Assembly (NCBI RefSeq): GCF_002749975.1
Contig: NZ_PEIG01000008.1
Coordinates: 1-64,000, forward strand
Direction: 5' to 3'
Source of the DNA: Gloeocapsopsis sp. IPPAS B-1203
GTDB taxonomy: Bacteria > Cyanobacteriota > Cyanobacteriia > Cyanobacteriales > Chroococcidiopsidaceae
DNA length: 64,000 nucleotides
Shown: positions 22,979-50,939 of the stretch, piece by piece
How the letters are laid out: every line of letters starts with the position of its first letter
How positions within the stretch are numbered: position 1 is the stretch's first letter
The notes under the pieces: model-generated
Told to the model about the DNA's origin: nothing
Databases searched by the model: none
Seen by the model: the letters and a program-made list of their open reading frames with translations, nothing else
Position numbers and translations under genes: made by a program

Positions 22979-23326
22979 CTAAGAATGTTTGGTGTAGCAA
23001 ACTTCGTAAAGCGTCGGATCGGATTGTGCAATTTTACCGATTGCAGGCATATGTGCCACAGCTTCAGGATTATTAAAAATACCGCGAAAGTCCTCAATAC
23101 TTTGCCATTGTGCGTAGTTTGTTACTCTTTTACCGTCTAAACTTTTGTGGATATTTGCCGCAATAAAACCAGGAAGATTACACATGACTTCTTCAGTTGC
23201 TTTTACTAATAAATCAACGAGTAATTGCTGGTTTTCTGGCTCAACAATAAATACATTAATTAAAGTGATGCAGTCAGTATCTTTAGATATTGTGGTGAGT
23301 TCTTCGTTGTTGACGATTGTAGTCAT
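22979..23326 (-). CDS. Antibiotic biosynthesis monooxygenase (ABM) domain protein
   Basis: A 115-residue ferredoxin-like alpha/beta protein of the ABM family: INVFIVEPENQQLLVDLL, then the LPGFIAANIHKSLDG strand and NYAQWQSIEDF. Small cofactor-free ABM enzymes oxidise phenolic rings to quinones in type II polyketide pathways, although some family members are simple stress proteins. Its place between two O-methyltransferase genes favours a biosynthetic role. Confidence 0.85.
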   Translation of the reverse strand: MTTIVNNEELTTISKDTDCITLINVFIVEPENQQLLVDLLVKATEEVMCNLPGFIAANIHKSLDGKRVTNYAQWQSIEDFRGIFNNPEAVAHMPAIGKIAQSDPTLYEVCYTKHS

Positions 23327-26159: not shown

Positions 26160-26169
26160 ATACTGTTGC

Positions 26170-34062: not shown

Positions 34063-34473
34063 TTGAAACTGACAATTCTATTTAACGGTCAATTCTGGGA
34101 AGGAATAGTTGAAGTAAACTACGAAGGTTGTTTTAAAGCAGGAAAACATATATTTGGTTCAGAACCTAAAGATCCTGAAGTCTTGAATTTTGTAATTCAT
34201 TCAGCATTAAAAATATTAGAAAACACGACCTCTTCAATAGAGATAAATATAGCTGAAGAGAAAAGAGTTAATCCTAAAAGGCTTGCAAGAGAAGTTGCCA
34301 AAGAATCTATTAGAGGAGTGTCTACAATGGCACAAGAAGTAATTCAACAAGAGCTAGAAACTCGAAAAAAAGAAAAGAAAGTGACCTCTAAAGCCCAGAA
34401 AGAAGCTGAAAAAGAGCAAAAGCGCCTAATTGCACAGCAAAAAGCGAAGGCAAGACATCGTGGTAAAGGTTAA
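34063..34473 (+). CDS. yjdF: YjdF family RNA-binding protein (DUF2992)
   Basis: A 136-residue protein matching the YjdF family: KLTILFNGQFWEGIVEV at the N-terminus, KAGKHIFGSEPKDPEVL, then RVNPKRLAREVAKE, and a lysine-rich helical tail ending KAKARHRGKG. YjdF proteins are predicted RNA-binding and of unknown role; in Firmicutes their mRNAs carry a riboswitch for azaaromatic compounds. The family is mostly Firmicute, so its presence in a cyanobacterium may reflect transfer. The TTG start is supported by a well-placed ribosome binding site. Confidence 0.85.
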   Translation: MKLTILFNGQFWEGIVEVNYEGCFKAGKHIFGSEPKDPEVLNFVIHSALKILENTTSSIEINIAEEKRVNPKRLAREVAKESIRGVSTMAQEVIQQELETRKKEKKVTSKAQKEAEKEQKRLIAQQKAKARHRGKG

Positions 34474-35385: not shown

Positions 35386-36282
35386 CTAAACTAATAACGC
35401 CTCAAGTAAACGTTTCCACTCAACTAGATCGCCATTATTAGTTGCAAGAATGTCAGTTAAATCATCAAAATCTCGATGAATTCCATCCTTAAACTTTTTG
35501 ATTTTCTCTTTATAGAACTTCACCCTCATAATATCTGTTTTGCCCTGGAGTAGAAAATAGCAAAAATAGTCAAATAGATCGATTAGTATTTGAAATGGCA
35601 ATACTAGTTTGTCATAACCTAAACTTTGAGAATACTCATCATATTCTTCTAGCATTCCTCTGATGATGAGATATTCTAAATAGTTGAGTTTTACAAAAGG
35701 GTTGTTAGGGAATTTTTGCAATGCATCTTGCATAACCTGCACAGAACGATTAGAGTCATTCTGTTTCAGTAAGAAAACTGCATACCTTTTTATTGCCCAA
35801 GTGTAAGCAGGATTTTTGGTAAGAACATCATTGTAAACTTGTTCTGCTTCTTCTAGGCGGTTGTACTTTTCTAGAAAGTAAGCATAATGTGAGAGAGTCC
35901 ATAAGTCATCGTCATAGCCATTCTTTAAAGCTTTGTGATACCACTCATAAGCACGATCCATCAGAAAATTTCGTTCTAGAATGTAGGCGTAATAATTTGC
36001 TCCCTCGTTTCTATTTGTGATAAACGCTTGTTCAAGATGATAAAGCGAAGTTTCGTAATTGTAAGTTTTGCCATAACATTGACCGATTCCATAGTGAAAG
36101 TCTGGTGTCTCTTTATGTTTTAGTAAGTGTTGATATAATTTTGTCGTTACTTTGTACACATCTTCCGCGCGTAAGAAATCTGCAACTTCAGCAATAGAAG
36201 CGATCGCATAGTCTTGATACTGATTAAGAATCTTTTCATACTCTTGGTTGCGAGCAAGATTCATCAACTCGTTTTCTACCAT
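35386..36282 (-). CDS. TPR-like helical repeat protein
   Basis: A 298-residue all-helical protein with at least four TPR-like units, for example YHYGIGQCYGKTYNYETSLYH-type, NYYAYILERNFLMDRAYEWY, LEEAEQVYNDVLTKNPAY and VQVMQDALQKFPNNPFVKL. It probably mediates protein contacts. It starts 26 bases after the stop of the NACHT gene on the same strand, so the two are probably co-transcribed and may work together. Confidence 0.7.
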   Translation of the reverse strand: MVENELMNLARNQEYEKILNQYQDYAIASIAEVADFLRAEDVYKVTTKLYQHLLKHKETPDFHYGIGQCYGKTYNYETSLYHLEQAFITNRNEGANYYAYILERNFLMDRAYEWYHKALKNGYDDDLWTLSHYAYFLEKYNRLEEAEQVYNDVLTKNPAYTWAIKRYAVFLLKQNDSNRSVQVMQDALQKFPNNPFVKLNYLEYLIIRGMLEEYDEYSQSLGYDKLVLPFQILIDLFDYFCYFLLQGKTDIMRVKFYKEKIKKFKDGIHRDFDDLTDILATNNGDLVEWKRLLEALLV

Positions 36283-36308: not shown

Positions 36309-38666
36309 TTAGCTTGCTTGACAAGCATCGTACCAAGTTGACAATGATTGAAGTTCGGCAAGTGGCAGTAACAAAGTATCTTGAATTTCCTGCTGCACTC
36401 TATTACTGACATAACAGCTATTGTTCAGGCAATCTATCAATAATTGATTGGTATCGTAGTACTGTTTAAGTTTTTCCATCTGCTGAGTATTAAACTGCCA
36501 ATTGTAGCCAAAATTGCGATAGGAAATCGATACTAGCTTTAACTGTTCCATCCAAGTATCACCGTTAGCTTTCCACCACAGGTCAAATTCACTGTCCTGA
36601 AGTGAACTGAATACTTGTTTAAGTTGTTGCAATTCTTGCTCTAGATTGGAATCAACAACACTAGCACGGGTAATTGCTCGTTCAAGAACGCGCTTAAAAG
36701 TCAAAATACATTTTGGAGTGTCTTTAATCACGTAGTTAAGCGCAAGCGTACGATCAAGTGCAAGATCAAGCGCCAGCTCATCATTAATTTTTCGAGTCAT
36801 TGTCGGCTCAAGTGCACGCGCTAAATCTAAAGTACTACTAAGTAAATTAGAGGTACGCGCTAAGTCAAGGTCAAAATAAAAAGCTCTCACAAGTACCGAC
36901 TTCTGTAGATACATACTACGGGCTTTTTGACTAATCCAGGTGAGAAACTCTTGTAATCGCTCATCTGCAACAAGGATTTGATCGACGTGTTGCTTCATTG
37001 ACTGAAGCAGGTAGTCAGCATTTTGTAACATACTAACGCTGAATAAAAATACTTCCCGCCAGCGTTTCTCCGTGACATGACTAACTAGTTGTTGTAAACT
37101 TTGATTTAAAGCTTGAACATCAGAATTATCAACAATTGTTCGTGCAGTGAAATATTCATGAAATGTCAAGTGGGAAAACGAATAAATTCCTCTAGCACGC
37201 TCGACTAACAAGCCATGTTGAGCTTCGATTGATTTGAGCACGATCTCACTATCGAGTTGCAACGGTTGAGTAGCTGTCACAACACTAGGCAAGCTACGGA
37301 TATAATCAGCAATGTATTGTTCTAGTTGCTGCTGTCTAAAGAAGTATTCACCTTGCTCAAATGTCTGTAAAGCAATCTGGCTTAATAGATCTTCCTTGTG
37401 TCTAACTGACAAGTTTTTGTAAACCTGCTCGCGTTCAATATTACGCTTAGCATCCCATTTTTTTAGTAGTAAATTTATTCCTTCTTTGTAAAATTGGGTG
37501 CGATTTATGGGAAAACTAGCTGTTTCTGCAAAGACTAGACATATCAGTGTCAGTAATAACGGATTAGTAGCTAGTTCGCGAATTGTAGAGTTTTGCTGGA
37601 GTTTCTGCAGAAAACTTCGACTCTCTTCTTGAGAAGCAAACCAATTATAAGCAAAACTAGTTATCTGATCGGCATCAAAATCAGCAATTTCTACCTCAGT
37701 AAACTCTTCAAAGGTATATTCGCGTGTTGCAATTCTACAGGTAAGTACAAAATGGCTATGAAGAAACTTAGCTGAAAAACTTCGGATCTCCTGAACAACG
37801 CGATAGCAATTTTTTCCCTGTACTTCATCGAGTCCATCAAGTAAGACTAGCGCCCTACCATGACTTAATATTTGTGCAATGACTGTAGAATCCGTCACTC
37901 CGCAAGTTGTCAACTGCTGTGCTATGTACTCAAGCAGATTTGGCTGTTCTGGTGCTTCAGCAAAGTCTTTGAGCGCGATTAATATTGGTACTCGGTTATC
38001 TTTTAGCTTGCCATTAATACACTGCAAGGCAATATGTTTTAGAAAAGTAGTTTTACCTGCGCCTGGTTTACCCAATACGACTAACTTGGTGTACTCTTGC
38101 AGTGCTTCTAAACCAGATATTGAGCTTTGAGTAACTTCCCCAAAGTTAGGACGCTCAAATTCGTCTGGTGCGCAAACTTTGAGCAAATCAGTGAGTTCTA
38201 ATCGGCGTCGTCCTGTAATTTTTTTGAGTAGGTTTACCTTAGTATAAATGTTATTTAATTCGATGGGCTGGGACATATCTAGTACCCGCATTAGCCCACA
38301 CCTTTGTTGTATGGTAGTGCGCACTTTATCGCGTATGTCTTGTACTAATACGTCTAGGTCACACTTACTATTGAAGTGAGCTAACCCTAACTGAACAAGT
38401 TCAACTTCCTCAATTAAGTCAGCAGTTTCTTCCTCCCAATTTTCTAGTTCAGCAACATCTTGCCAAGGTAATTCTAATCTTTGACAGATTTTATGAAAAT
38501 TTTCCCGCCCTACTGGTTTGCCAGCAAAAAACTTTTGTACTGTCGAGCGAGAGACTTCTAACTCATCTGCCAAGTCAAGTTTAGTTGCAAACATCAACAT
38601 AGCCCGATTAGCACGGTTGAGTCCTTCTGGTGATGCTTTTAGCGATCGCCCTGCCTGTACTTTCAT
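36309..38666 (-). CDS. NACHT-domain STAND NTPase with N-terminal helix-turn-helix
   Basis: A 785-residue signal-transduction ATPase. The N-terminus (about residues 15-70) looks like a DNA-binding helix-turn-helix: LADELEVSRSTVQKFFAGKP. After a linker comes a NACHT ATPase with Walker A GKPGAGKT at 199-206 and Walker B LVLLDGLDEV ending near 282, then sensor-like helical segments (TNPLLLTLICLVFAE) and a C-terminal helical region without obvious leucine-rich or WD repeats. NACHT proteins of this build are abundant in cyanobacteria; some bacterial NACHT proteins act in phage defence. The effector is not evident, unless the N-terminal domain or the adjacent TPR protein supplies it. Confidence 0.85.
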   Translation of the reverse strand: MKVQAGRSLKASPEGLNRANRAMLMFATKLDLADELEVSRSTVQKFFAGKPVGRENFHKICQRLELPWQDVAELENWEEETADLIEEVELVQLGLAHFNSKCDLDVLVQDIRDKVRTTIQQRCGLMRVLDMSQPIELNNIYTKVNLLKKITGRRRLELTDLLKVCAPDEFERPNFGEVTQSSISGLEALQEYTKLVVLGKPGAGKTTFLKHIALQCINGKLKDNRVPILIALKDFAEAPEQPNLLEYIAQQLTTCGVTDSTVIAQILSHGRALVLLDGLDEVQGKNCYRVVQEIRSFSAKFLHSHFVLTCRIATREYTFEEFTEVEIADFDADQITSFAYNWFASQEESRSFLQKLQQNSTIRELATNPLLLTLICLVFAETASFPINRTQFYKEGINLLLKKWDAKRNIEREQVYKNLSVRHKEDLLSQIALQTFEQGEYFFRQQQLEQYIADYIRSLPSVVTATQPLQLDSEIVLKSIEAQHGLLVERARGIYSFSHLTFHEYFTARTIVDNSDVQALNQSLQQLVSHVTEKRWREVFLFSVSMLQNADYLLQSMKQHVDQILVADERLQEFLTWISQKARSMYLQKSVLVRAFYFDLDLARTSNLLSSTLDLARALEPTMTRKINDELALDLALDRTLALNYVIKDTPKCILTFKRVLERAITRASVVDSNLEQELQQLKQVFSSLQDSEFDLWWKANGDTWMEQLKLVSISYRNFGYNWQFNTQQMEKLKQYYDTNQLLIDCLNNSCYVSNRVQQEIQDTLLLPLAELQSLSTWYDACQAS

Positions 38667-39759: not shown

Positions 39760-40683
39760 ATGATTGCTGCAAATAGGTTACAAACATTGTTAAATGCTGG
39801 TCATTTTGTTGTGTCAGCTGAATTAACACCGCCGCGACACTACAAGATAAAGCCATTGATTAGCAAAGCGGAAAAGATTGCTGCCTACGTAGATGTAGTA
39901 CACATAAATGACAATGCGCTTTCACAAGCACGGTTATCTAATGTTGTAGCCGCACACTTAATCCAGCAAATAGGAATTGAACCTGTTGTGCAATTAACAC
40001 TACGTCACAAAAACCGGATTGCTTTGCAGAGTGACTTATTAGGACTAGCAGCACTAGGAATTCGTAATGTCATGATTTTAGGGGGTTATCCCTGTTCAAT
40101 TGGTAGCGATCCAGATGCTAAGGAGGTAAATGACATCTCTGCAATTGATGCGATCGCCGCAACTCACAACCTAACAACGTACGGCAAAATGTTTAATGGA
40201 GATGCGATCGCGCCAGCTCCAGATTTTTATATAGGTACAATCGCAGTTCCTTCCACAGCGCCCGATAAATTAGATGAGAGCATGGCTCTTTTGGCGGCAA
40301 AGATTAATCGTGGTGCACGCTATATTCAGCTACAAGCAACTTTCGATCTGACCACAATGCAGCAATGGATGGCAGAAGTTGTGAAACGAGGATGGCACAA
40401 ACGAGTTCATTTTATTGGAGCAGTTTTTCCTGTTAGTAGCTGGAAAGGACTTGAGTTTTTACAAACAATCCCAAGTTTCATCATCCCAAATGATGTAGTT
40501 GAGCGCATTCGCAGCAGCGATCGCAAGTCAGAAAGCCTTAAAGTCACTTTAGAGTTAATTCAAGGTATACAAGCCATCGAAGGCATTCGCGGTATTCACT
40601 TGCGATTAATTGGTTCTAGTGACTGTTCTCAGATTGTCGAATTAGCAGGACTACGACAAGCCCAACGCAGCACAATCACTTGA
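39760..40683 (+). CDS. Methylenetetrahydrofolate reductase-like protein
   Basis: A 307-residue TIM-barrel protein of the MetF/MTHFR superfamily. Recognisable are the N-terminal SAELTPPRH (normally S-x-E-x-x-P-P), VVHINDNALSQARLSN, VVQLTLRHKNR, LGIRNVMILGGYPCSIGSDP and IGAVFPVSSWKGLEF. It would bind FAD and folate and reduce methylene-THF to methyl-THF, feeding methionine and SAM. It is divergent from housekeeping MetF, and its position as first gene before the KS genes suggests it serves the pathway, perhaps supplying methyl groups or acting as a flavin reductase on another substrate. Confidence 0.75.
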   Translation: MIAANRLQTLLNAGHFVVSAELTPPRHYKIKPLISKAEKIAAYVDVVHINDNALSQARLSNVVAAHLIQQIGIEPVVQLTLRHKNRIALQSDLLGLAALGIRNVMILGGYPCSIGSDPDAKEVNDISAIDAIAATHNLTTYGKMFNGDAIAPAPDFYIGTIAVPSTAPDKLDESMALLAAKINRGARYIQLQATFDLTTMQQWMAEVVKRGWHKRVHFIGAVFPVSSWKGLEFLQTIPSFIIPNDVVERIRSSDRKSESLKVTLELIQGIQAIEGIRGIHLRLIGSSDCSQIVELAGLRQAQRSTIT

Positions 40684-40741
40684 AAGCACTTAGCAATTGG
40701 CTAAAAGCTAATTAAACACTTTTCTTACTAAGAATTAAAGA

Positions 40742-42019
40742 ATGAAACGAGTAGTAATTACAGGCATTGGTGTTGTGGCTCCTTTAGGAATCGGTAAGGA
40801 GCAGTTTTGGAAAAATGCAATTCGCGGACAATCGTATTTGCAAGCTGACCCTGAAATGGAAGCAATGGGTATTAAAAGCAAAGTCGTGTGTCGAGTTGCT
40901 GATTTTGATCTTTCCGATTACTGTTCAGGAGCGGAGTTTGACCATTTGGTTGAGCAAGATCGCGTAGTGCAGTTTGGTGTTGTTTCTGGTACGGCGGCGA
41001 TCGCTGATTCAGGTTTAGACTTAAGTCAAGAAAACCCAGAATCTTTAGGAATTATCTTTTCCTCAGCGATCGGTGGTACGCCAACAATCCAAAAAATCTT
41101 TGAGCGATGCAGTGAAAAAGGCAGCCAACCCTTAAGACACGTTGCCACTGGTGAGAATTTCTACAACGCAGGTATGTTCAACTATCCTGCGGCACTTCTA
41201 GCACGAAAGCACGGATTTCAAGGACCGTGTACCTCGCTATCGACAGGTTGCACTGCTGGCTTAGATGCTTTAGGACTAAGTTTTGAACTGATTCGTTCTG
41301 GAGAATGCCAGGTGATGCTGGCAGGAGCTTCTGAAGCGCCGCTTACTAGTTTAACTTATGCCACACTCGACGTCATTGGTTCTCTTTCGGTAGCCGATTG
41401 CGAACCAGAAAAGGCATCTCGTCCATTTGATGCGAAGCGCGGTGGATTTGTCATTAGTGAAGCTGGTGCAGTATTAGTGCTAGAGGAATTAGAACATGCA
41501 CTTGAGCGCAACGCCCACATTTATGCCGAAGTTGTGAGTTATTACAGCGTCAGTAATGCCTTTCATATGACTGATCTTCCCGATCACGGAGTCCCAATGG
41601 CAGCAGTGATGGAACGAACGCTAAACCTAGGCAATGTTGAACCAGAAGAGCTTGATTATATCAATGCACATGGCAGTTCTACACCGCAAAATGATCTATT
41701 TGAAACGAATGCTTACAAACAAGTACTAGGCGATAAAGCCTATCGCTTGCCAATTAGTTCAACTAAATCAATGATCGGTCATTCGCTTTCTTCTGCCAGT
41801 TTAGTAGGAGTTGTGGCAACTTTAGGTGCAATTGAACTTTCTGTTGTTCACCCAACAGCTAATTATGAGTTTCCTGATCCTAACTGCGATCTTGACTACG
41901 TACCCAACGAGGCACGTTCTACAGATGTCAACACTGCACTACTAACTGCGAGTGGCTTTGGTGGCATCCATTCCGCAGCAATTTTCAAAAAGTATCGGGA
42001 GGAATTTTTAGGTGAGTAA
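40742..42019 (+). CDS. Type II polyketide ketosynthase, KS-alpha
   Basis: Beta-ketoacyl synthase of 425 residues that condenses malonyl-ACP units. The thiolase-fold catalytic set is complete: nucleophile Cys170 (STGCTAGLD), His310 (NAHGSSTPQND), Lys342 and His347 (MIGHSLSSAS). The gene overlaps the following CLF-like gene by 8 bases, the classical KS-alpha/KS-beta coupling of type II PKS. The STGCTAGLD context and the pairing with a cysteine-less partner distinguish it from housekeeping FabF. Minimal PKS partners (ACP, holo-ACP synthase) follow directly; malonyl loading presumably uses the FabD of fatty acid synthesis. Confidence 0.92.
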   Translation: MKRVVITGIGVVAPLGIGKEQFWKNAIRGQSYLQADPEMEAMGIKSKVVCRVADFDLSDYCSGAEFDHLVEQDRVVQFGVVSGTAAIADSGLDLSQENPESLGIIFSSAIGGTPTIQKIFERCSEKGSQPLRHVATGENFYNAGMFNYPAALLARKHGFQGPCTSLSTGCTAGLDALGLSFELIRSGECQVMLAGASEAPLTSLTYATLDVIGSLSVADCEPEKASRPFDAKRGGFVISEAGAVLVLEELEHALERNAHIYAEVVSYYSVSNAFHMTDLPDHGVPMAAVMERTLNLGNVEPEELDYINAHGSSTPQNDLFETNAYKQVLGDKAYRLPISSTKSMIGHSLSSASLVGVVATLGAIELSVVHPTANYEFPDPNCDLDYVPNEARSTDVNTALLTASGFGGIHSAAIFKKYREEFLGE

Positions 42020-43220
42020 ACACGATGTAGTCATTACTGGCATTGGTATTATTAACCCTGCTGGTACTGGCAAAGATGAGTTTTGGCACAATATCAGTAC
42101 AGGTAAATCTGCAATTCGTGCGATTAGCCGTTTTGATTCTACAGACTTTCCAACCAAGGTAGCAGGTGAGATTGCAGAGTTTGAACCAGCAGACTATATT
42201 CCGCGTCGCTTCATTGTCAAAACAGATCGATTCACGCACTACGCCTTGGCTGCAACTGAATTGGCACTGCAAGATGCAGCACTTGATTTAACACAAGAAG
42301 ATTCCTATCGCGTTGGTGTTTGGTTTGGTAACAACGCAGGCGGTTGGGATATCTGCGAACGTGGATTTTACGAACTGTATAACGACGGCGCAACGATGGT
42401 TAATCCTTGGCAAGCAACGGCGTGGTTTCCGACAGCGGCTCAAGGGTATGTTACAATCCGCTACGGTATTCGCGGGTACAGCAAGAGTTTTGTTTGCGAT
42501 CGCGCTAGTGGCGCAAGTGGATTGTACTTTGGCATCAAGTCAATCCAAGAAGGATTTAATGATGTCGTTATTGCTGGCGGTTCGGAAGCACCGATCACGC
42601 GGTTTGGGATGACGTGTTATTACGAAACAGGAGAAGTTAGTGCCGCGAGTGATCCAGAAAAAGCTTATTTACCATTTGACCGCAATCGCTCAGGCTTAGT
42701 ACTAGGTGAGGGCAGTACCGTTTTGGTACTAGAATCAAAAGAACACGCACTTGGGCGTGGTGCGAAGATTTATGGCAAGGTTGTCTCTGGTTGTATGACG
42801 ACGGATACCGATCCCACTAGCGGTGCTAACTTTGAGCGCTGCATGGCACGCGCGATTCAATCTGCACAACTCCAACCAACAGATATTGATATTGTCTTAG
42901 CCGAAGGATGCGGAACGCAACAAAACGATCGCGTTGAGGGCGGAGCGATCGCCAATGTTTTTGCCCAAGCACCAAATGTCGCGGTTTCAGTTCCTAAAGC
43001 ACTCTACGGGCACCTTTATGGTGCAAGTTGTGTTACTGAGGTAGCTTGCAGCCTTTTGGCAATGGAGACAGAACAATTACCTACAATGAACCAAACTGAG
43101 CCAGATTCCGACTGTCGGCTCAACTTTGTCACTCAACCCCAAAGTCATCCGGTGCGCCATGCACTAGTGAATTCTCGCGCTCGCGAGGGAGTCAATGCAT
43201 CGTTTGTGATTGGTCAGTAA
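42012..43220 (+). CDS. Type II polyketide chain length factor (KS-beta)
   Basis: A 402-residue KS homologue that lacks condensing activity. In an ungapped alignment with the upstream KS-alpha, Cys170 is replaced by Arg164 (CDRASGASG) and His310 by Glu298 (LAEGCGTQQND), while Lys329 and His334 are kept. Most chain length factors carry Gln at the cysteine position, so Arg is unusual. It should pair with KS-alpha and set polyketide length. It starts with GTG inside the end of the KS-alpha gene. Confidence 0.9.
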   Translation: MSKHDVVITGIGIINPAGTGKDEFWHNISTGKSAIRAISRFDSTDFPTKVAGEIAEFEPADYIPRRFIVKTDRFTHYALAATELALQDAALDLTQEDSYRVGVWFGNNAGGWDICERGFYELYNDGATMVNPWQATAWFPTAAQGYVTIRYGIRGYSKSFVCDRASGASGLYFGIKSIQEGFNDVVIAGGSEAPITRFGMTCYYETGEVSAASDPEKAYLPFDRNRSGLVLGEGSTVLVLESKEHALGRGAKIYGKVVSGCMTTDTDPTSGANFERCMARAIQSAQLQPTDIDIVLAEGCGTQQNDRVEGGAIANVFAQAPNVAVSVPKALYGHLYGASCVTEVACSLLAMETEQLPTMNQTEPDSDCRLNFVTQPQSHPVRHALVNSRAREGVNASFVIGQ

Positions 43221-43310
43221 TGTGTTGCGATCGCATGAAAGTGCCAAAGTTCGCCCAATCGCTCTTCATCACAGCAAATACCAATCAAAACTAAAGTTAC
43301 ATTTTTAATT

Positions 43311-43323
43311 GAGGTATCTACTT
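43311..43323 (+). promoter_or_regulatory. Ribosome binding site deciding the ACP start
   Basis: GAGG at 43311-43314 is 9 bases before the ATG at 43324; upstream in-frame TTG at 43309 has no site. Confidence 0.6.
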
Positions 43324-43566
43324 ATGGTCATGGATGCGCTAAAAGACATTTTGCTTGATTTAGGAATTCCTGAACAAGAAATTACAGCAGCAGCACTCCT
43401 CCGCAAAGACTTGCAGCTCGACTCAACAGAAACAGTAGACATTTCTCTAGGATTAAAACGTCGCTTCGGTGTCAATGTCAAACTCGAATCACGCAAAGAC
43501 ATGACATTAGGGGATGTCTGCGAGATGGTTAACCAAGCGATCGCTGCTACTGCTACTGCTACATAA
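43324..43566 (+). CDS. Acyl carrier protein of the type II PKS
   Basis: An 80-residue acyl carrier protein. The phosphopantetheine attachment serine is Ser34 in DLQLDSTETVD (DST in place of the usual DSL). The four-helix layout is normal. A dedicated ACP between the KS pair and a holo-ACP synthase gene completes the minimal PKS. The start at 43324 is chosen from its ribosome binding site. Confidence 0.9.
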   Translation: MVMDALKDILLDLGIPEQEITAAALLRKDLQLDSTETVDISLGLKRRFGVNVKLESRKDMTLGDVCEMVNQAIAATATAT

Positions 43567-43595
43567 GACTTCCTAGCAAAGGAACACAAGTTTTC

Positions 43596-44003
43596 ATGTA
43601 TCTACAACTTGCCCAACCAAAACTTGCCGAAGTTAAAGGGATAGGAATTGATATTGCATCTATTAGTAAAATTGCCTCTTTAGTAAGCCGCTACAACAGC
43701 GAAACGCTTACTCTACTTTTTACTCCCGACGAAATTGAACAGTGTCAGTTTGCACCGCATCCTAGTCGATATTACGCCGTCTGTTTTTCGGTTAAAGAAG
43801 CTGTAGGCAAAGCTTTAGGAACTGGATTAGTTGATATCAACTGGAATGAGATTGAAACAGTCATAGTTCAGTCGGGCTTGACAATTAAGTTGCGCGGCGT
43901 AGCACAACAAAAAGCATTGCAGTGTGGAGTGAAAGCATGGCTGGCAACTTGGTGCTATTGGGATGACTATGTGATGGTTCACGTTCTTTCAAAGGGCGAA
44001 TAA
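43596..44003 (+). CDS. Holo-ACP synthase (AcpS-type phosphopantetheinyl transferase)
   Basis: A 135-residue AcpS-family enzyme that moves phosphopantetheine from CoA to the ACP serine. Motifs GIGIDIASI near residue 16 and FSVKEAVGKALGTG near residue 65 carry the magnesium and CoA-binding residues. Many cyanobacteria rely on a single Sfp-type transferase, so an AcpS-type enzyme next to this ACP probably serves it specifically. It starts 29 bases after the ACP gene and ends 2 bases before the ligase gene. Confidence 0.9.
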   Translation: MYLQLAQPKLAEVKGIGIDIASISKIASLVSRYNSETLTLLFTPDEIEQCQFAPHPSRYYAVCFSVKEAVGKALGTGLVDINWNEIETVIVQSGLTIKLRGVAQQKALQCGVKAWLATWCYWDDYVMVHVLSKGE

Positions 44004-44005
44004 AC

Positions 44006-45553
44006 ATGAATCAGTACGAACAACTACCTGATATTTTTAATGTGGCAGCTTACTTTATCAAAGGTAATTTGCATAAAGGATATGGTGAAAAAATTGCTCT
44101 GTACTATCACGATGAGACGTACACGTATCGTAAAGTAAGTAATGAAGTTTGCGCTGCTGCTGGATTACTCGCTGAGTTAGGTTTAGAACGCGAAAATCGA
44201 ATCGCACTCCTATTACCCGATAGCCCAGACTTTGTATTTGCCTTTTGGGGTGCGATTTGGTTAGGTGCTATACCTGTACCAATCAACACTGCGTGTAACT
44301 TGAATGATATTGAGTATATTCTGCAAGATTGCCGCGCTAAAATCTTACTCACAACTCAAGACTGGCAAGAAAAGCTTTCTCCAATTCAGTCTCCATTCTT
44401 ACAAAATATTCTCCTTATAGATGGAGAGAACTCTTTTAGAACACTCTCAAACTCATTTTCTCAAGAACTATCGCCGGCACAAACATCACCCGACGAACCA
44501 GCATTCTGGCTGTATACTTCCGGTAGTACAGGTAGACCCAAAGGCGCGATTCACATTCATCGCAGTATGATTGTCTGCGCAGAGCAGTACGGTAAAGCGA
44601 CTCTTGGTTTGCATCATAACGATATTACATATTCAATCGCCAAGATGCCATTTGCCTACGGTCTAGGAAACACTTTGTATATGCCAATGGCAGTTGGTGC
44701 AGCATCAATTTTATCGGATGCAAATAATGCCTTCGACATCATTGCCGATATTCATCACTATCAACCAACAATTTTGTTTGCAATTCCTGCTACTTATGCT
44801 AGTATTCTGGCAGTGCAAGACATTGCCCCTTTAAATGCTGCAACATTACGCTTATGTGTATCAGCAGCTGAGCAACTACCTAAAAGCATTTGGCAAAAAT
44901 GGCGCAATACCTACGGTAAAGAAATTTGTGAAGGTATTGGCACAACTGAATTTTTACATATCTTTCTTTCAAATCGTTTAGGCGAATGCCGTCCAGGTAG
45001 TTCAGGTAAACCTGTTGCTGGTTACGATATCCGCATCATTGATGAGAATGGTGTCCTAATGCCTACTGGCGAAATTGGCAACTTGCAAGTAGGTGGCGAT
45101 AGTTTGATGCTGCGGTATTGGAACCGTCATCAAGAAACACGCCAAGTGATCTACGGTAAGACCATGCGTACCGGAGATAAATATCTCTGTGATGAAGATG
45201 GCTATTTCTGGTTTATGGGACGCAAAGACGACCTTTTTAAGGTTAACGGGCAATGGGTGTCGCCCTTTGAAATTGAAGACGTGTTGCTGCAACACGAGAG
45301 TGTGCTTGATGTTGCAGTAGTACCAGAATCTGAAAGTGGTGAAAATTTAACTCAAGTTGTAGCCTACGTTAGCCTGAAGTTTGGTTTTTCCGAGTCGGCT
45401 GAACTAGAAGAAAGCATTCGTAGATTTACCAAAATGCAATTGCCTCGATTTAAAGCTCCGAAAAAGATTCAATTTTTAGAACGATTACCGCGTACGTCAA
45501 CAGGAAAAATTCACCGCAAGGCATTACTTAAAGCTAGTCAATTGGTTCAATAA
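44006..45553 (+). CDS. Benzoate-CoA ligase-like adenylating enzyme
   Basis: A 515-residue ANL-superfamily acyl-adenylate enzyme. It has the P-loop YTSGSTGRPKG at 170-180, the GIGTTEFLHIFLSNR region that in benzoate/4-hydroxybenzoate-CoA ligases forms the substrate pocket, the RTGDKY aspartate and the catalytic lysine in STGKIHRK near the C-terminus. The closest family I recognise is benzoate-CoA ligase. With a salicylate-synthase-like gene in the same cluster, it probably activates salicylate or another benzoate as the polyketide starter and transfers it to CoA or directly to the ACP (as EncN does in enterocin synthesis). Confidence 0.87.
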   Translation: MNQYEQLPDIFNVAAYFIKGNLHKGYGEKIALYYHDETYTYRKVSNEVCAAAGLLAELGLERENRIALLLPDSPDFVFAFWGAIWLGAIPVPINTACNLNDIEYILQDCRAKILLTTQDWQEKLSPIQSPFLQNILLIDGENSFRTLSNSFSQELSPAQTSPDEPAFWLYTSGSTGRPKGAIHIHRSMIVCAEQYGKATLGLHHNDITYSIAKMPFAYGLGNTLYMPMAVGAASILSDANNAFDIIADIHHYQPTILFAIPATYASILAVQDIAPLNAATLRLCVSAAEQLPKSIWQKWRNTYGKEICEGIGTTEFLHIFLSNRLGECRPGSSGKPVAGYDIRIIDENGVLMPTGEIGNLQVGGDSLMLRYWNRHQETRQVIYGKTMRTGDKYLCDEDGYFWFMGRKDDLFKVNGQWVSPFEIEDVLLQHESVLDVAVVPESESGENLTQVVAYVSLKFGFSESAELEESIRRFTKMQLPRFKAPKKIQFLERLPRTSTGKIHRKALLKASQLVQ

Positions 45554-45567
45554 GAAAGGATAACTCA

Positions 45568-45966
45568 ATGGTAACGCAGCAACAAAGACACTTGGTAATG
45601 GGACCAAGTGATGTTCCGACGATCGCCGACAGAGGTGGTGAAATTCATGTATTGATTTCTCCTACCAGCGTGCAGTCCACCAAGTTAATTATGGGCACAG
45701 CAACCGTACCAGTTGGCGGCAGAGTATTATGTCACGCACACCCACATGGTGAAGAGTGTTTTTACGTACTGCAAGGTCAAGGTGAAATCGAGATTGCAGA
45801 CGTTGGTGTTGTACCCTTTCAAGCCGGACAAGCAGTACTGACTCCCCAAGGTGCAGCGCATTCGATTGTTAACGTTGGTAATGAGGAAATCCGAGTTGTC
45901 TTTGCCTCGGCTCCCTTAGCACCTTCCCCCAAAGACGGACACATTATTCTTGAAGGAGAACACTAA
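45568..45966 (+). CDS. Cupin domain protein
   Basis: A 132-residue single-domain cupin. Both metal-binding motifs are textbook: CHAHPHGEE followed by YVLQG, and PQGAAHSIVN. The His/His/Glu/His set should hold Fe, Mn or Zn. Small cupins in aromatic polyketide clusters serve as oxygenases, cyclases or isomerases; which applies here is unknown. Its stop codon abuts the ATG of the next gene (TAAATG), indicating close coupling. Confidence 0.85.
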   Translation: MVTQQQRHLVMGPSDVPTIADRGGEIHVLISPTSVQSTKLIMGTATVPVGGRVLCHAHPHGEECFYVLQGQGEIEIADVGVVPFQAGQAVLTPQGAAHSIVNVGNEEIRVVFASAPLAPSPKDGHIILEGEH

Positions 45967-46299
45967 ATGAAGAACATGATGCAAGAAGCGCCGGATGTTG
46001 CCCAGAGTTTCTTCGATCTGGCAAAATCGGTGAAGCAGTATTCTCCGCTTGATGAAAAGGTTAATGAGTTAGTTATTATCGGTATATTTAGCGCACATCG
46101 GGGTTTACGAGGCATCAACACGCACGTAGAGCGCGCGATCGCAGCTGGAGCAACCAAAGAAGAAGTGATTGCTGCAATTCTCTTAGCACTACCAATTGTT
46201 GGCATTACAGATGTCAATATGGCATTAGATCAAGCAATGGAGACGATCTCACACACCACAGCCGAAACAAAGGAGGTTGCAGGTGCGACGGCTAGTTGA
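45967..46299 (+). CDS. Carboxymuconolactone decarboxylase-fold protein lacking the redox cysteines
   Basis: A 110-residue all-helical protein of the CMD/AhpD superfamily: LDEKVNELVIIGIFSAHRG, then THVERAIAAGATKEEVIAAILLALPIVG. The usual active-site pattern CxxCxxxH reads GLRGINTH here, so both cysteines are Gly and only the histidine remains. Peroxidase activity is therefore excluded and an acid/base role (decarboxylation, lactone or ring chemistry) is more likely. It overlaps the following cyclase gene by 17 bases. Confidence 0.85.
   Translation: MKNMMQEAPDVAQSFFDLAKSVKQYSPLDEKVNELVIIGIFSAHRGLRGINTHVERAIAAGATKEEVIAAILLALPIVGITDVNMALDQAMETISHTTAETKEVAGATAS
46271..46282 (+). promoter_or_regulatory. 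Ribosome binding site deciding the cyclase start
   Basis: AGGAGG (46271-46276) lies inside the CMD-like gene, 6 bases before GTG at 46283. A TTG directly after the site would have no spacer and is rejected. Confidence 0.75.
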
Positions 46300-47074
46300 C
46301 TTGAGTGTCTTAGTCGAAAACTCGGCTTCAGAGCCGATGGAAATTCGCGTTGAGCGACTCGATCACATCAATGGTGCTAAGCATTTTTGTGCGGAAGTGG
46401 CAACGCGAAATGCTGCTAAGTCTGACGATCGCCGTCTTGAACCTGAAGATTTTCCCAATGGTGCCTTTATTACTTTAGATACTGTCACCTTACCCACACA
46501 CATGGGGACGCATATTGACGCCCCGATTCATTACGGTTCAGATTGTGCAGGTTCTCCAGCGCGTTCTGTCGATGAATTACCCCTAGAGTGGTTTTTCAGT
46601 GATGGAGTACGACTCGACTTACGCCACAAACAGCCACAAGACTTTATTAGCATTGCAGACATCAAAACTGCCTTAGATGCAACTAAACACCAACTCAAGC
46701 CTCTAGATATTGTTCTAGTTTGGACAGGAACCGATAAACTTTGGGGTAAGCGTGAGTATTTTTCCCATGCACCAGGCATGAGTCGAGAAGCGACTGAGTG
46801 GTTAGTAGAACAAGGCATCAAAGTTATCGGCATTGACACCTACGGCTTTGACCGTCCATTTGTCACGATGCTAGAAGACTTTTGGCGGACAGGCGATCGC
46901 AGTTATCTTTGGCCAGCACACTTCTATGGTCGCGAACGCGAATACATTCAAATCGAACGTCTCGTCAATCTCGAACAGCTACCCGATACAGGATTTCAAG
47001 TTGCTTGCTTTCCTTTGCGTGTTAAAGGATTAGATGCAAGTTGGGTACGCGCAGTAGGGATAGTAAATGGGTAA
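46283..47074 (+). CDS. Metal-dependent cyclase/hydrolase (kynurenine formamidase-like)
   Basis: A 263-residue member of the PF04199 cyclase family, whose members include kynurenine formamidase and proteins annotated as polyketide cyclases. The metal-binding motif is complete: HMGTHIDAPIH. WTGTDKLWG and IGIDTYGFDRP are further family landmarks. It could hydrolyse an ester, amide or lactone or assist ring closure of the polyketide. It is translationally linked to the CMD-like gene through the overlap. Confidence 0.87.
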   Translation: MRRLVDLSVLVENSASEPMEIRVERLDHINGAKHFCAEVATRNAAKSDDRRLEPEDFPNGAFITLDTVTLPTHMGTHIDAPIHYGSDCAGSPARSVDELPLEWFFSDGVRLDLRHKQPQDFISIADIKTALDATKHQLKPLDIVLVWTGTDKLWGKREYFSHAPGMSREATEWLVEQGIKVIGIDTYGFDRPFVTMLEDFWRTGDRSYLWPAHFYGREREYIQIERLVNLEQLPDTGFQVACFPLRVKGLDASWVRAVGIVNG

Positions 47075-47090
47075 TGGGGAATAGGAGTAT

Positions 47091-47119
47091 TTACCGATTA
47101 CCAATTACCAATTACCACC
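47091..47119. repeat. Heptanucleotide short tandem repeat (STRR-like)
   Basis: Four copies of a 7-base unit, TTACCRA-like (TTACCGA, TTACCAA, TTACCAA, TTACCAC), between the cyclase and aromatase genes. Such heptamer repeats are common in cyanobacterial intergenic regions; a similar string (ATTACCAATTACTCATTACC) follows the salicylate synthase gene. Confidence 0.8.
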
Positions 47120-47164
47120 TAACTACTTCACAACAGTAACTTATAGATTTTACGGAGTGTAAAT

Positions 47165-47647
47165 ATGACAGGTTACACAGAGAACAATATTGTTATTTTG
47201 CGAGATTTTAATACTGTTTTCGATCTAACAAACGATATTGGGCTTTGGCCACAACTATTTACTGAGTACGAAAAAGCAGAAGTACTAGAGCGCAATGGTA
47301 ACGAAGTTTTGTTTAGTTTGACGACTTATCCTGAAGGCGATCGCCCTTCACGAACTTGGGTTTCGCGGCGGCTGATTGACAAGCCTGGTAAACAAGCTAC
47401 GGCGGAACGCGTAGAAAAAGCCTTTCCATTTAAGGACATGAAAATTCACTGGACTTATGAGGAGTTACCTCAAGGCGTGGGTGTGGTGATGACTTGGATG
47501 CAAAAGTTTGAGATCCACGATGAATGCAAGTGGACAACTGAACAGATGGAGTCATTTCTTAACCGAAATACTCGCGTTCAAATGCGAGCGATTAAAGAAA
47601 AAGTTGAAGCTTGGTCTGCTAAGACTCTTACAACAAACGCTGTCTAA
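47165..47647 (+). CDS. SRPBCC aromatase/cyclase
   Basis: A 160-residue START/Bet v 1-fold protein resembling the TcmN/WhiE-type polyketide aromatase/cyclases: FDLTNDIGLWPQLFTEYEKAEVL, RTWVSRRLIDKPG, MKIHWTYEELPQGVGV and MTWMQKFEI. These bind the nascent poly-beta-ketone and direct first-ring closure and aromatisation. It is strong support for an aromatic polyketide product. Confidence 0.88.
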   Translation: MTGYTENNIVILRDFNTVFDLTNDIGLWPQLFTEYEKAEVLERNGNEVLFSLTTYPEGDRPSRTWVSRRLIDKPGKQATAERVEKAFPFKDMKIHWTYEELPQGVGVVMTWMQKFEIHDECKWTTEQMESFLNRNTRVQMRAIKEKVEAWSAKTLTTNAV

Positions 47648-47681
47648 TACTTGCCGCGACAACCCCAAGGAGTAACTATCA

Positions 47682-49004
47682 ATGTACCAGCTAGCCAGTG
47701 ATTTTTTAACATATCACGAAATGTTTGTTCCAGGTCAAAAAGACCCACTCGTTATCTTGCAAACTTTATTGCAAACTGGGGTTTTTTCTGAATATGTGAT
47801 GTACGAAAGCGAGAGCGAGGTACGGATTGCGGGTAATGCTTTAGCTGAGGTTTCAGTCAGTGCTGAAGCTGTGTCTAGTCGCTTTATGAGCCAGAAGCAC
47901 TCAGAAATTTGCACCGATCCACTGAAGCAAGTCGAGTCAATTTTTGCATCTTTGCCAGTAGAAAACTGGACAGCTTATGGTTACGTTGGCTTTGACATTG
48001 CCCGTTTTTATTACTCCTACTCCAAAGCTATTGACCAGCCTTTACTTTACTTTTTGGTTCCAGAAACCGAACTTTACATTACCACAAAGGGAGTACACAT
48101 TAGAAGTATTAAGTCACCTGCAAAAGTGCTAGAAGTCTTATCTGCTGATAGCAAATTAGCAGAATATGTACCAACGCCTCCCGTTGTAGCTGCAACTGAA
48201 AACCAACAGTATGAAAAACAAGTTGCAACTCTAATTGATGCCATTCAAAATGGCGAACTGCATAAAGCGATTATCTCGCGATCAGTAAAGGTGAAGGGCA
48301 ATATGGATGTGCTTGGCACTTATATATTAGGAGCTAAGAGTAATAACGCTGCGCGTTCGTATTGTATAAGTGTGGGAGATGTCTGCGCTGTAGGGTTTAG
48401 CCCTGAGATTTTGATGGAAGTTAGCACAGATGGTTTTGTTGTAACAAATCCTCTAGCAGGAACGCGACCGCGTAGTTCAGATTTAGAAGAAGATACGCGT
48501 TTGAGTGATGAGTTATTTATTGATGCTAAAGAAGTTAAGGAACACGCACTTTCTGTTTGGTTAGCGCAAAGTGAGATTAGCACAGTTTGCTCACCTGAAA
48601 CTGTACAGATTTTTGATTTTATGCAAGTTAAGCAGTACCGTTGCGTTCAACACTTATCTTCACGGGTAGGCGGTCAACTCAAATCAGGAAAGACGCTATG
48701 GGATGCATTGAAAGTGCTGTTTCCTGGTATTACAGTCTCTGGAATTAATAAACAAGAAGCTTTAGCATGGATTGACCGCTTGGAGGAAGAACCAAGAGGA
48801 ATTTATGCTGGTGGTATTGGTTGGATTGATAGCAGTGGTACAGCAGATTTAGCGATCGCAATTCGCTCTGTTTATCAATATGGTGACTCTGTTCATCTCA
48901 ACGCGGGTGCAGGTATTGTAGCTGAATCGGTTCCTCAAAACGAATATGTTGAATCGGTTAACAAGATGAATACGATGCTAACCAATCTCGTGATGGAGTC
49001 CTAA
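47682..49004 (+). CDS. Salicylate synthase-like chorismate-utilising enzyme
   Basis: A 440-residue member of the MbtI/Irp9/YbtS branch of chorismate-binding enzymes, which convert chorismate through isochorismate to salicylate and pyruvate. Diagnostic segments: VTNPLAGTRPR, DAKEVKEHALSV, QIFDFMQVKQYRCVQHLSS, LFPGITVSGINKQEA and PRGIYAGGIGW, ending with LNAGAGIVAES. The pattern fits salicylate synthase better than menaquinone isochorismate synthase MenF or TrpE. In this setting it would make the aromatic starter acid for the polyketide; the nearby ligase would activate it. A siderophore role is less likely because no NRPS genes are present. Confidence 0.87.
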   Translation: MYQLASDFLTYHEMFVPGQKDPLVILQTLLQTGVFSEYVMYESESEVRIAGNALAEVSVSAEAVSSRFMSQKHSEICTDPLKQVESIFASLPVENWTAYGYVGFDIARFYYSYSKAIDQPLLYFLVPETELYITTKGVHIRSIKSPAKVLEVLSADSKLAEYVPTPPVVAATENQQYEKQVATLIDAIQNGELHKAIISRSVKVKGNMDVLGTYILGAKSNNAARSYCISVGDVCAVGFSPEILMEVSTDGFVVTNPLAGTRPRSSDLEEDTRLSDELFIDAKEVKEHALSVWLAQSEISTVCSPETVQIFDFMQVKQYRCVQHLSSRVGGQLKSGKTLWDALKVLFPGITVSGINKQEALAWIDRLEEEPRGIYAGGIGWIDSSGTADLAIAIRSVYQYGDSVHLNAGAGIVAESVPQNEYVESVNKMNTMLTNLVMES

Positions 49005-49045
49005 TTAGTCACCCCATTACCAATTACTCATTACCTATTGCAAGT

Positions 49046-49849
49046 ATGTCTTTTATTCAGGTTGCAAATCGCAAAGTTTATTACAATGCACCTTTTGGGT
49101 TGCCGTCTCAAGGCGATCGCAAAATAATGTTGCTAGTACATGGTGCTGGAGGTAGCAGCCGTCATTGGGAACCAATGCTAGCTCAATTCGATGCGACAGA
49201 ATTTCCTGTAGCGCTCGATTTACCAGGACATGGGGCTTCGGAGGGGTATGTACCTGATTCAATTGATGCCGTTGCTGAATTTCTCAATGTTTTTTTGAAT
49301 CGCTTAGGCATTGAGCATCCTATTTGTTACGTAGGACAATCGATGGGAGGCTTGATCGGACTTCAATTTGCGCTTGCTTACCCAGATCGAGTTGCACAGT
49401 TGGTCTTAATGGCAACCTCTGCACGCATTCAACTTCATCCTGATTTTCTGCAGCAGGCGATAACTGGGCAATGGCATTATGAAACTCTCCGTCAAAGTTT
49501 TGCTCCTGAAATTCCTGAAAATGTTAAAGCTCTTGTATTAAGTGAATTCCAATATACTTTATTGCAAGCAGATGCTTCTGATTTCATGGGTGTAAGTCGT
49601 GTCGATCTCAGTAGTGCCGTGTCAGCTTTACGGCTACCGACATTGATTCTCACCGGAGACGATGACGTAATTATCTCGCCACGCAAATCTAAGATGTTAC
49701 AGTGGCAAATTGAAAACTCTCGCTTGGTTACGATACCTAATGCGGGTCACTACTTGCACGTCGAACAACCGGCAAAAGTTGCTGCTGAAATTCAGCATTT
49801 TGTCAAGGGCGATCGCTTGGTGTCAGCATCTCAATCACAGGAAAGTTGA
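49046..49849 (+). CDS. Alpha/beta hydrolase
   Basis: A 267-residue alpha/beta hydrolase with a complete triad: Ser99 in GQSMGG, an aspartate in LTGDDD (about 205-207) and His235 in NAGHY. The oxyanion motif is LVHGAGGSSRHW. It could release the polyketide from the ACP (no other thioesterase is visible), cleave a diketone or edit the chain. Confidence 0.85.
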   Translation: MSFIQVANRKVYYNAPFGLPSQGDRKIMLLVHGAGGSSRHWEPMLAQFDATEFPVALDLPGHGASEGYVPDSIDAVAEFLNVFLNRLGIEHPICYVGQSMGGLIGLQFALAYPDRVAQLVLMATSARIQLHPDFLQQAITGQWHYETLRQSFAPEIPENVKALVLSEFQYTLLQADASDFMGVSRVDLSSAVSALRLPTLILTGDDDVIISPRKSKMLQWQIENSRLVTIPNAGHYLHVEQPAKVAAEIQHFVKGDRLVSASQSQES

Positions 49850-49915
49850 AGCCTAATTTACAGTTGAACCTTTGATTTCTCTAGCAATCCTGCGTCCCTA
49901 CTCAAGATCATTGGT

Positions 49916-49925
49916 GAGGATTGAT
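49916..49925 (+). promoter_or_regulatory. Ribosome binding site deciding the reductase start
   Basis: GAGG at 49916-49919 is 6 bases before a GTG at 49926. The longer TTG start at 49872 has no comparable site. Confidence 0.55.
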
Positions 49926-50939
49926 GTGGAAGTACTATCTGACTCTAAGTTCAATTCTCCTGCTACGCGGCTGAGCGAAAACCGCAGCTATGCAATTCTT
50001 GGCACTGGAGCATTAGGTGGGTTTTATGGTGCTCGCTTACAACAGGTTGGACTCGATGTTCACTTTCTGTTGCGTAGTGATTATGAGTATGTCAAGAAAC
50101 ATGGTTTATTTATCGAATCTCCAGATGGATCTTTCCGCCTCTCCCATGTTAATGCCTACCGTAACGTGCTCGATGTACCACCTTGTGATGTTGTTATCGT
50201 TGCGCTAAAGACAACGCAAAATAATTTATTACGGCAAATGCTACCTAGTTTAGTTAAAGATAACAGTGTTGTCTTAGTCTTGCAAAATGGTCTAGGTGTA
50301 GAAGAGGACGTCGCGGCGATCGTCGGCTCGCATCGCGTCATGGGTGGCTTGTGCTTTACTTGCAATGACAAAGTTGCTCCAGGTCACATTCGTCATCTTC
50401 ATTACGGTGTAATTACGCTCGCCGAATATGCTTGTAATTATCTAAGTTGTGGAATTACCGAGCGTATGCTTCAAGTCAAAAGTGACTTTGAGAGTGCTGG
50501 GGTTCTCATTCAGTTAGCTGAAGATCTGCTTTTAGCTCGTTGGAAAAAACTTATCTGCAACATTCCCTTTAATGGTCTAACTGTTGTACTCAATGCAACT
50601 ATCAAAGACTTGATAAGTGACGTTCATACACGGGCTTTGATCGAGCAGATGATGCAGGAGATGGTAGCTGTTGCGGCGGCTTATGGTCGAGCGATCGCAG
50701 ATGACTATATCGAAAAACGGCTCAAATTTATTGCCAAGATGGGACCATATCGCACGAGTACAAAAATTGATTTTGATCAAAGGCGATCGCTAGAGGTGGA
50801 AGCAATCTTTGGTAAACCTTTATATGCTGCTCAAAAAGTTGGGCTTGATACTCCACAACTTGCCATGCTTTACCGACAGCTAAAGTTTTTAGATACCTAT
50901 TACTGTACTAATCAAGCGATCGCAGTTTTATCGCATTAG
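49926..50939 (+). CDS. Ketopantoate reductase-like (PanE/ApbA) oxidoreductase
   Basis: A roughly 337-residue NADP-dependent reductase of the 2-dehydropantoate 2-reductase family. The Rossmann motif YAILGTGALGGFYGARL opens the N-terminal domain; VALKTTQNNLL and LQNGLGVEED follow; the C-terminal helical domain has RWKKLICNIPFNGLT with the conserved catalytic lysine. It could be the housekeeping enzyme of pantothenate synthesis or a pathway ketoreductase. As the last gene of the polyketide run it may do either; phosphopantetheine supply is a possible link. Confidence 0.82.
   Translation: MEVLSDSKFNSPATRLSENRSYAILGTGALGGFYGARLQQVGLDVHFLLRSDYEYVKKHGLFIESPDGSFRLSHVNAYRNVLDVPPCDVVIVALKTTQNNLLRQMLPSLVKDNSVVLVLQNGLGVEEDVAAIVGSHRVMGGLCFTCNDKVAPGHIRHLHYGVITLAEYACNYLSCGITERMLQVKSDFESAGVLIQLAEDLLLARWKKLICNIPFNGLTVVLNATIKDLISDVHTRALIEQMMQEMVAVAAAYGRAIADDYIEKRLKFIAKMGPYRTSTKIDFDQRRSLEVEAIFGKPLYAAQKVGLDTPQLAMLYRQLKFLDTYYCTNQAIAVLSH

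Follow-up and report, generated by a model that had tools for sequence, protein, structure and literature searches.

Whether a cyanobacterium can encode a complete aromatic type II polyketide synthase (PKS), and which product such an assembly line would deliver, is the question raised by 13 neighbouring genes of Gloeocapsopsis sp. IPPAS B-1203, located at 39760-50939 of the window analysed here, a 64 kb stretch at the start of contig 8 in a genome of 5.9 Mb and 57 contigs. An earlier note, made from the letters alone, had described these genes as a same-strand cluster of that kind, and all 13 were recovered in an open reading frame check, on the plus strand, intact and without internal stops. 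Judged by its genes, the set is a salicylate-primed aromatic type II PKS cluster, since its chorismate enzyme is a salicylate synthase and its ligase belongs to the benzoate-CoA ligase family. The predicted product is a salicylate-primed, thermorubin-like planar aromatic polyketide, a reading to which we attach a probability of about 0.87.

The two starter enzymes, previously described as a chorismate enzyme and an adenylating ligase, both score above the cut-offs of specific family models (Table 1); the top PDB matches of the former are MbtI- and Irp9-type salicylate synthases, and the latter has an orthologue of 92% identity in genome G396. In the alignment, the ketosynthase (KS) KS-alpha retains the three residues given in Table 1, which bears out its identification, and in KS-beta or chain length factor (CLF), whose gene overlaps that of KS-alpha by 8 bases, the active-site Cys and the first His are both replaced. 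The description of this CLF as cysteine-less is therefore right for the active site and wrong for the rest of the protein, where cysteines occur. As the earlier note supposed, the pair is of type II: in a tree of 58 rows (12 with unusual amino-acid make-up; four in no group, namely three type I KS domains and one other KS), 16 KS and 16 CLF form separate starred clades, with support of 100/95 and 100/100 respectively, each placing cyanobacteria and Bacillota beside actinomycetes. The KS-alpha/CLF/ACP logic and a TcmN-like aromatase are shared with actinomycete PKSs of the actinorhodin and tetracenomycin type, from which the window cluster differs by its salicylate starter, by its separate clades and by the CLF itself: the Cys position is occupied by Arg in all nine aligned cyanobacterial CLFs, as well as in Priestia and Lactobacillus gasseri (Apilactobacillus kunkeei has Lys), whereas three of the four actinomycete CLFs compared have Gln and the other His.

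The acyl carrier protein (ACP), for which ATG 43324 is preferred as the start over TTG 43309, bears its phosphopantetheine serine, Ser34, in a DST motif; its NCBIfam ACP matches are weak and the family search of the window protein gave no Pfam match. Family searches also agreed with the previous assignment of the ACP, the AcpS-type phosphopantetheinyl transferase (PPTase), the SRPBCC aromatase/cyclase and the other cyclase-like proteins, and they revealed no malonyl transferase among the 13 genes. The MTHFR-like and PanE-like genes at the two ends are unlikely to be housekeeping genes, because the genome carries another of each: a second MTHFR, at C5, that scores higher than the one in the cluster, and another PanE-like gene elsewhere.

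This kind of PKS is already known, an orthologue having been published. On sequence identity (97% for KS and 94% for CLF in G396), the window PKS is very probably orthologous to gloPKS, G396 being a genome of another genus and presumably Gloeocapsa sp. PCC 7428. According to the available sections of Li et al. (PMC11744666), the minimal gloPKS of Gloeocapsa sp. PCC 7428 was expressed in E. coli and reconstituted in vitro: an engineered gloACP was primed with salicylate by its cognate ligase gloSCL, and assays with Streptomyces FabD yielded C29 products from a salicyl starter and 11 malonyl units, which were likened to thermorubin. The construction of GloeA/B expression plasmids is described in the accessible part of Cummings et al. 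(PMC6638757). The available text on gloPKS (PMC11744666) covers the minimal PKS and its priming, and YjdF, methyltransferases and an exporter are unmentioned in it. The two systems have in common KS and CLF, an ACP with Gln31, Ser34 and Thr35, a salicylate ligase and a PPTase.

The producer of thermorubin, Laceyella sacchari, is a Gram-positive thermophile, unlike the cyanobacterial host; as McCord reportedly described in 2022, thermorubin biosynthesis begins with a salicylate synthase. Its pathway further resembles the one proposed here in the salicylate starter, the 11 malonyl units and the C29 backbone, as far as the available sections of PMC11744666 describe it. Some points weigh against so specific a prediction. 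No native product is reported for the orthologous cluster in those sections, and this is what stands of the novelty that had been claimed for the phylum; the rest fell with the reconstitution of gloPKS and with a published catalogue in which, in the portion at hand, Cyanobacteria are among 14 phyla (PMC10132072). Wild-type gloACP was converted to the holo form neither by Sfp nor by the cognate PPTase, misfolding of the PPTase not being excluded (PMC11744666, same sections), and the role of the PPTase is therefore one that we infer. Lastly, the likeness to thermorubin is taken from that paper; a named-genome CLF scan returned no Laceyella locus.

With E<=1e-90 as threshold, 10 of the 388 genomes searched in the order carry the CLF, and so do 6 of 19 in the family. 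Among 26 loci from the named-genome scan, five are at 75-98% identity (Gloeocapsopsis crepidinum, a Chroococcidiopsidaceae metagenome-assembled genome (MAG), a Myxosarcina MAG, Pleurocapsales LEGE 10410 and Stenomitos frigidus) and the remaining 21 at most at 42%, bar one 35-residue match. All ten cyanobacterial loci long enough to judge, including the window, have the 11 genes that run from KS to hydrolase; L033 and L068, L032 and L035, and L031 and L034 are the same loci, each pair being counted once, and L100 (G641), a 5.6 kb contig, is omitted. The MTHFR-like gene is whole in eight of these loci, and the PanE-like gene is present in eight and was not found in two. Ka/Ks against G396 ranges from 0.015 to 0.22 over 27 window genes, the match stretch of the ABC ATPase holding a stop. 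Both recurrence and Ka/Ks indicate that the grouping of the cluster genes is more than chance.

The core order KS-CLF-ACP-ligase-cupin-(CMD)-cyclase-SRPBCC is shared by plasmids of Priestia megaterium, A. kunkeei and L. gasseri, the last without CMD. These three were chosen from 263 plasmid records with a CLF-like match, the best 20 of which are mostly FabF or actinomycete CLFs. Their clusters differ from that of the window in the ligase, which is 31-41% identical (41% for the Priestia ligase, at the same place in the cluster), in the S-adenosylmethionine (SAM) methyltransferases carried within the operon, and in the salicylate synthase, none of which was found in the stretches seen. The pks cluster of L. 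reuteri was set aside as a relative, since the accessible part of its description (PMC6498181) has a ketoreductase and a dehydratase and no cyclase or cupin terms.

The earlier note had called the cluster complete at 39760-50939, and here it needs correction: tailoring, export and yjdF genes outside this interval very probably belong to it, and on gene neighbourhood the cluster very probably extends leftward to about 19.2 kb; the earlier interpretation as a whole is partly supported. This left block is collinear in G395, G396 and G397 (75-96%). In G422 and G542, members of another family, its homologues are found in rearranged order around yjdF, some 6-20 kb beyond the PKS; in G422, yjdF is preceded by a major facilitator superfamily (MFS) protein. 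G422 and L033 have one O-methyltransferase each, matched by all three of the window (44-50%); three linked O-methyltransferases are only suggestive of a tetracyclic O-methylated product. Given the homologues near the PKS or yjdF in G422, G542 and L033, we think that the tailoring and export genes belong to the pathway, the ABM monooxygenase gene with less certainty. The cluster probably ends just short of gyrB (16373-18313), which was rejected as a second, self-resistance copy, being the sole gyrB found in the genome. A fragment at 24540-25061 that adjoins O-methyltransferase 3 resembles the C-terminal domain of Type ISP restriction enzymes; G422, G542 and Myxosarcina have homologues of it (35-43%) upstream of their PKS, and it may also be linked.

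To the right of this block, yjdF encodes a DUF2992 protein whose occurrence follows that of the PKS; its family is an orphan one, known chiefly from genes that lie behind the azaaromatic riboswitch. A search of 376 genomes of the order found YjdF in nine, every one of them belonging to the 10 that bear the CLF (388 searched); within the family, it is in all six CLF genomes and in none of 13 others, one of these being a genome of the same genus with neither gene. Fisher tests, which ignore shared ancestry, give 3e-17 for the order, if the samples of 388 and 376 genomes are taken to be nested, and 4e-5 for the family. Stenomitos, reached through its PKS locus, has both genes, and in a phylum sample YjdF occurs in 4 of 386 genomes, three of them CLF genomes and the fourth the distant G020, whose best CLF match is only FabF-like. 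The two genes lie 8-23 kb apart in all seven genomes that have both on one contig (in G005, G399 and G070 they are on separate contigs), and YjdF is in or near all three Bacillota plasmid clusters examined. An azaaromatic riboswitch precedes yjdF in Priestia (82.6 bits vs a gathering score of 45); the stretches from L. gasseri and A. kunkeei gave none at gathering score, and no Rfam riboswitch was detected near the window yjdF at E<=1 over 32-52 kb.

It could be argued that YjdF and the left block are mere neighbours lying outside the pathway, kept beside the PKS by synteny alone in the closely related G395-G397. Several findings speak for this and to that extent against a larger cluster: collinearity of the left block is limited to close relatives, parts of the block recurring in rearranged form further out, and the ABM gene is seen in G395-G397 only; G641, with a completeness of 100, has a CLF and no YjdF; and YjdF matches occur on 16 other plasmid records, of which the eight inspected all lack a KS or CLF match within 12 kb (a cyclase-family gene lies about 4 kb away in that of Herpetosiphon), so that the YjdF family is wider, in Bacillota, than this pathway. 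Mere neighbourhood is nevertheless improbable, as YjdF tracks the CLF across two families of the order and in Stenomitos, occurs in no other genome of the 376-genome sample, keeps within the short distance given above and accompanies the three Bacillota clusters.

What we propose for YjdF, then, is self-protection of the producer against planar, thermorubin-like products, a putative role suggested by co-occurrence and by chemistry. In the available parts of two papers, from 2016 (Li et al., PMC4793209) and 2024 (PMC10987639), the function of YjdF and the natural ligand of its riboswitch are called unknown; the first suggests that YjdF mitigates the toxicity of planar compounds and reports no change in a yjdF knock-out with the compounds tested, and the second describes binding of multiring planar compounds by the riboswitch. 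In ribosomal RNA (rRNA), according to the accessible text of PMC9938272, the linear, fully aromatic tetracycle thermorubin stacks between h44 and H69, and the chemistry therefore fits. The matches listed in a literature search hold no link between YjdF/DUF2992 and a polyketide synthase; PMC4634765 contains both words for unrelated reasons.

Past residue 70, YjdF is basic: of 24 rows, which stand for 21 different genes (three repeat a listed one), 23 have a net charge of +9 to +22 and that of Herpetosiphon has +4. The single-sequence structure model of YjdF has a mean pLDDT of 55. In a PDB sequence comparison, ribosomal protein eL24 came up weakly (E 0.014), a match left uncounted because the YjdF family is lysine-rich. 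Protection at the ribosome is speculation. The fuller scheme, in which YjdF would give self-protection against planar thermorubin-type polyketides, perhaps by shielding rRNA through its basic C-terminal part, such polyketides would be the natural riboswitch ligands, and YjdF-only organisms would use the protein against producing neighbours, is tentative, and we lean against its holding in every part. Small plasmids of a honeybee and a human-urine lactobacillus carry a related type II PKS and YjdF (L060 14400-14834, L069 15134-15556); plasmid yjdF lies within 12 kb of genes annotated as antibiotic-modifying (macrolide phosphotransferase, macrolide-family glycosyltransferase and aminoglycoside phosphotransferase) in L116, L117 and L118; and eight viral contigs (L130-L137) carry a YjdF identical to one on a Streptococcus agalactiae plasmid record.

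As to the starter module, it is very unlikely that chance placed the salicylate synthase and ligase here and that they work for a siderophore or other pathway: relatives of both, 65-70% identical to those of the window, do lie side by side in nonribosomal peptide synthetase (NRPS)-PKS clusters on Chroococcidiopsis and Pseudanabaena plasmids (L097 10305-13326, L098 10357-13320), one pair adjoining siderophore transport genes, but the PKS operon includes both genes in all 10 loci, and gloSCL, as described above, loads the engineered gloACP with salicylate in vitro. Identity among the PKS clusters themselves, at 65-72%, is near that to the NRPS-PKS pairs, and the synthase-ligase pair seems common to two kinds of assembly line in cyanobacteria.

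The KS scores 230.9 with NF006587 (cut-off 470) and 140.2 with NF006618 (cut-off 407), and the CLF 84.1 with NF005084 (cut-off 320), all three of which we take to be aryl-polyene models. That the two KS genes represent a duplicated fatty-acid or aryl-polyene/glycolipid synthase rather than an aromatic type II PKS, as might be thought from FabF models being top-scoring for both proteins, from the frequent classing of non-actinomycete CLFs as like fatty acid synthases (PMC10132072, in the portion at hand) and from four FabF-like rows that join the KS and CLF clades at an open, weakly supported fork (89/60), is hardly credible and already largely refuted, for both proteins stay under the cut-off of 493.75 of the FabF model TIGR03150 (391.9 and 335.0), the tree, which held no true aryl-polyene or glycolipid sequences, leaves the FabF-like rows outside both clades and not as a single group, the CLF lacks the active-site Cys and one His, and the operon contains an aromatase and a salicylate synthase. 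A FabF or aryl-polyene origin was rejected on those scores and the tree, and the phylogeny asked for by the earlier note was thus run with no FabF grouping as its outcome.

Between yjdF and the PKS genes lie a pentapeptide-repeat protein, a TPR protein and a NACHT-STAND protein. The position of the TPR homologue varies, upstream of the PKS in some loci and downstream in others. In 7 of 10 loci the NACHT-STAND gene stands next to the PKS in divergent orientation; its family is multicopy in the genome, and it is not claimed as a proven cluster regulator, given paralogs of 42-50% and a tree that leaves its orthology in Stenomitos open. A PADLOC scan of the three proteins gave two matches only, both for NACHT. 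The pentapeptide-repeat gene (34503-35309, between yjdF and the TPR gene) has homologues of 70-84% in G395 and G396 and no match in G397; some pentapeptide proteins confer drug resistance.

Table 1. Features of the extended cluster region in window coordinates
Feature	Position	Strand	Evidence
Cytochrome P450, probable tailoring	19185..20546	-	PF00067 E 8e-68; 91% G395/G396, 67% near yjdF in G542
O-methyltransferase 1	20565..21605	-	PF00891+PF08100; 47% G422 yjdF region, 48% L033 upstream of PKS
O-methyltransferase 2	21688..22803	-	PF00891 E 1e-53; 49-50% to same G422, L033 genes
ABM-fold antibiotic biosynthesis monooxygenase, probable oxidation	22979..23326	-	PF03992 E 7e-8; 86-88% G395-G397
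O-methyltransferase 3	23452..24525	-	PF00891; 44-45% to same G422, L033 genes
ABC exporter ATPase, DevA-like by position	25431..26201	-	PF00005; 58% near yjdF in G422/G542
ABC exporter permease, DevC family	26170..27336	-	TIGR01185 585.3 bits, cut-off 290.35; 57% G422/G542
Exporter membrane-fusion protein, DevB family	27367..28599	-	TIGR02971 321.5 bits, cut-off 129; 32-34% G422/G542
DUF7453 / NxxGxxAF repeat protein	28969..30123	-	PF24251; 34-40% near yjdF in G422/G542
YjdF / DUF2992, proposed self-protection protein	34063..34473	+	PF11208 E 9e-41; co-occurrence with CLF
TPR protein linked to cluster	35386..36282	-	57-97% homologue near PKS in 9/10 loci
NACHT-STAND protein, helix-turn-helix-like N-terminus (by eye), possible regulator	36309..38666	-	PF05729/PF22727
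MTHFR-like protein, putative reductase	39760..40683	+	PF02219
KS-alpha	40742..42019	+	Cys170-His310-His347; tree
KS-beta / CLF	42012..43220	+	Cys replaced by Arg, first His by Glu; tree
ACP	43324..43566	+	Ser34 with Gln31/Thr35, positions as reported for gloACP
AcpS-type PPTase	43596..44003	+	PF01648; TIGR00556 above cut-off
Salicylate-activating ligase, benzoate-CoA ligase family	44006..45553	+	TIGR02262 491.6 bits, cut-off 375.25
Cupin, probable cyclase	45568..45966	+	PF07883
CMD-fold protein	45967..46299	+	PF02627
PF04199 metal-dependent cyclase/hydrolase	46277..47074	+	PF04199 E 1e-36; isatin hydrolase-like
SRPBCC aromatase/cyclase	47165..47647	+	phmmer match to TcmN and other solved polyketide cyclases, E ~1e-28
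Salicylate synthase	47682..49004	+	TIGR03494 347.4 bits, cut-off 325.15
Alpha/beta hydrolase	49046..49849	+	PF00561
PanE/ApbA-like reductase	49872..50939	+	PF02558; NF004887 above cut-off

From the gene content, intactness, phylogeny and linkage observed here, the following pathway can be proposed. The salicylate synthase would convert chorismate into salicylate, the AcpS-type enzyme would add the phosphopantetheine arm to the ACP, and the ligase would then load salicylate onto it. KS-alpha and CLF would extend it by about 11 malonyl units, for which fatty acid synthesis would lend its malonyl transferase; salicyl priming and elongation to C29 are assumed by analogy with the gloPKS orthologue, where they were obtained with the engineered ACP. 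The SRPBCC aromatase and the cupin, CMD and PF04199 proteins would fold and aromatise the chain, and a reductase or the hydrolase may finish the product. As regards the left block, we infer oxidation (ABM, P450), O-methylation (three enzymes) and export of DevBCA type, and YjdF would protect the producer.

The cluster adds gene context to a newly characterised cyanobacterial PKS, in the form of probable tailoring, export and protection genes beyond those of the in vitro study of the minimal enzyme. The link to YjdF, if true, would make testable what this protein does and what its riboswitch naturally senses, two questions that were left open in both the 2016 and the 2024 papers.

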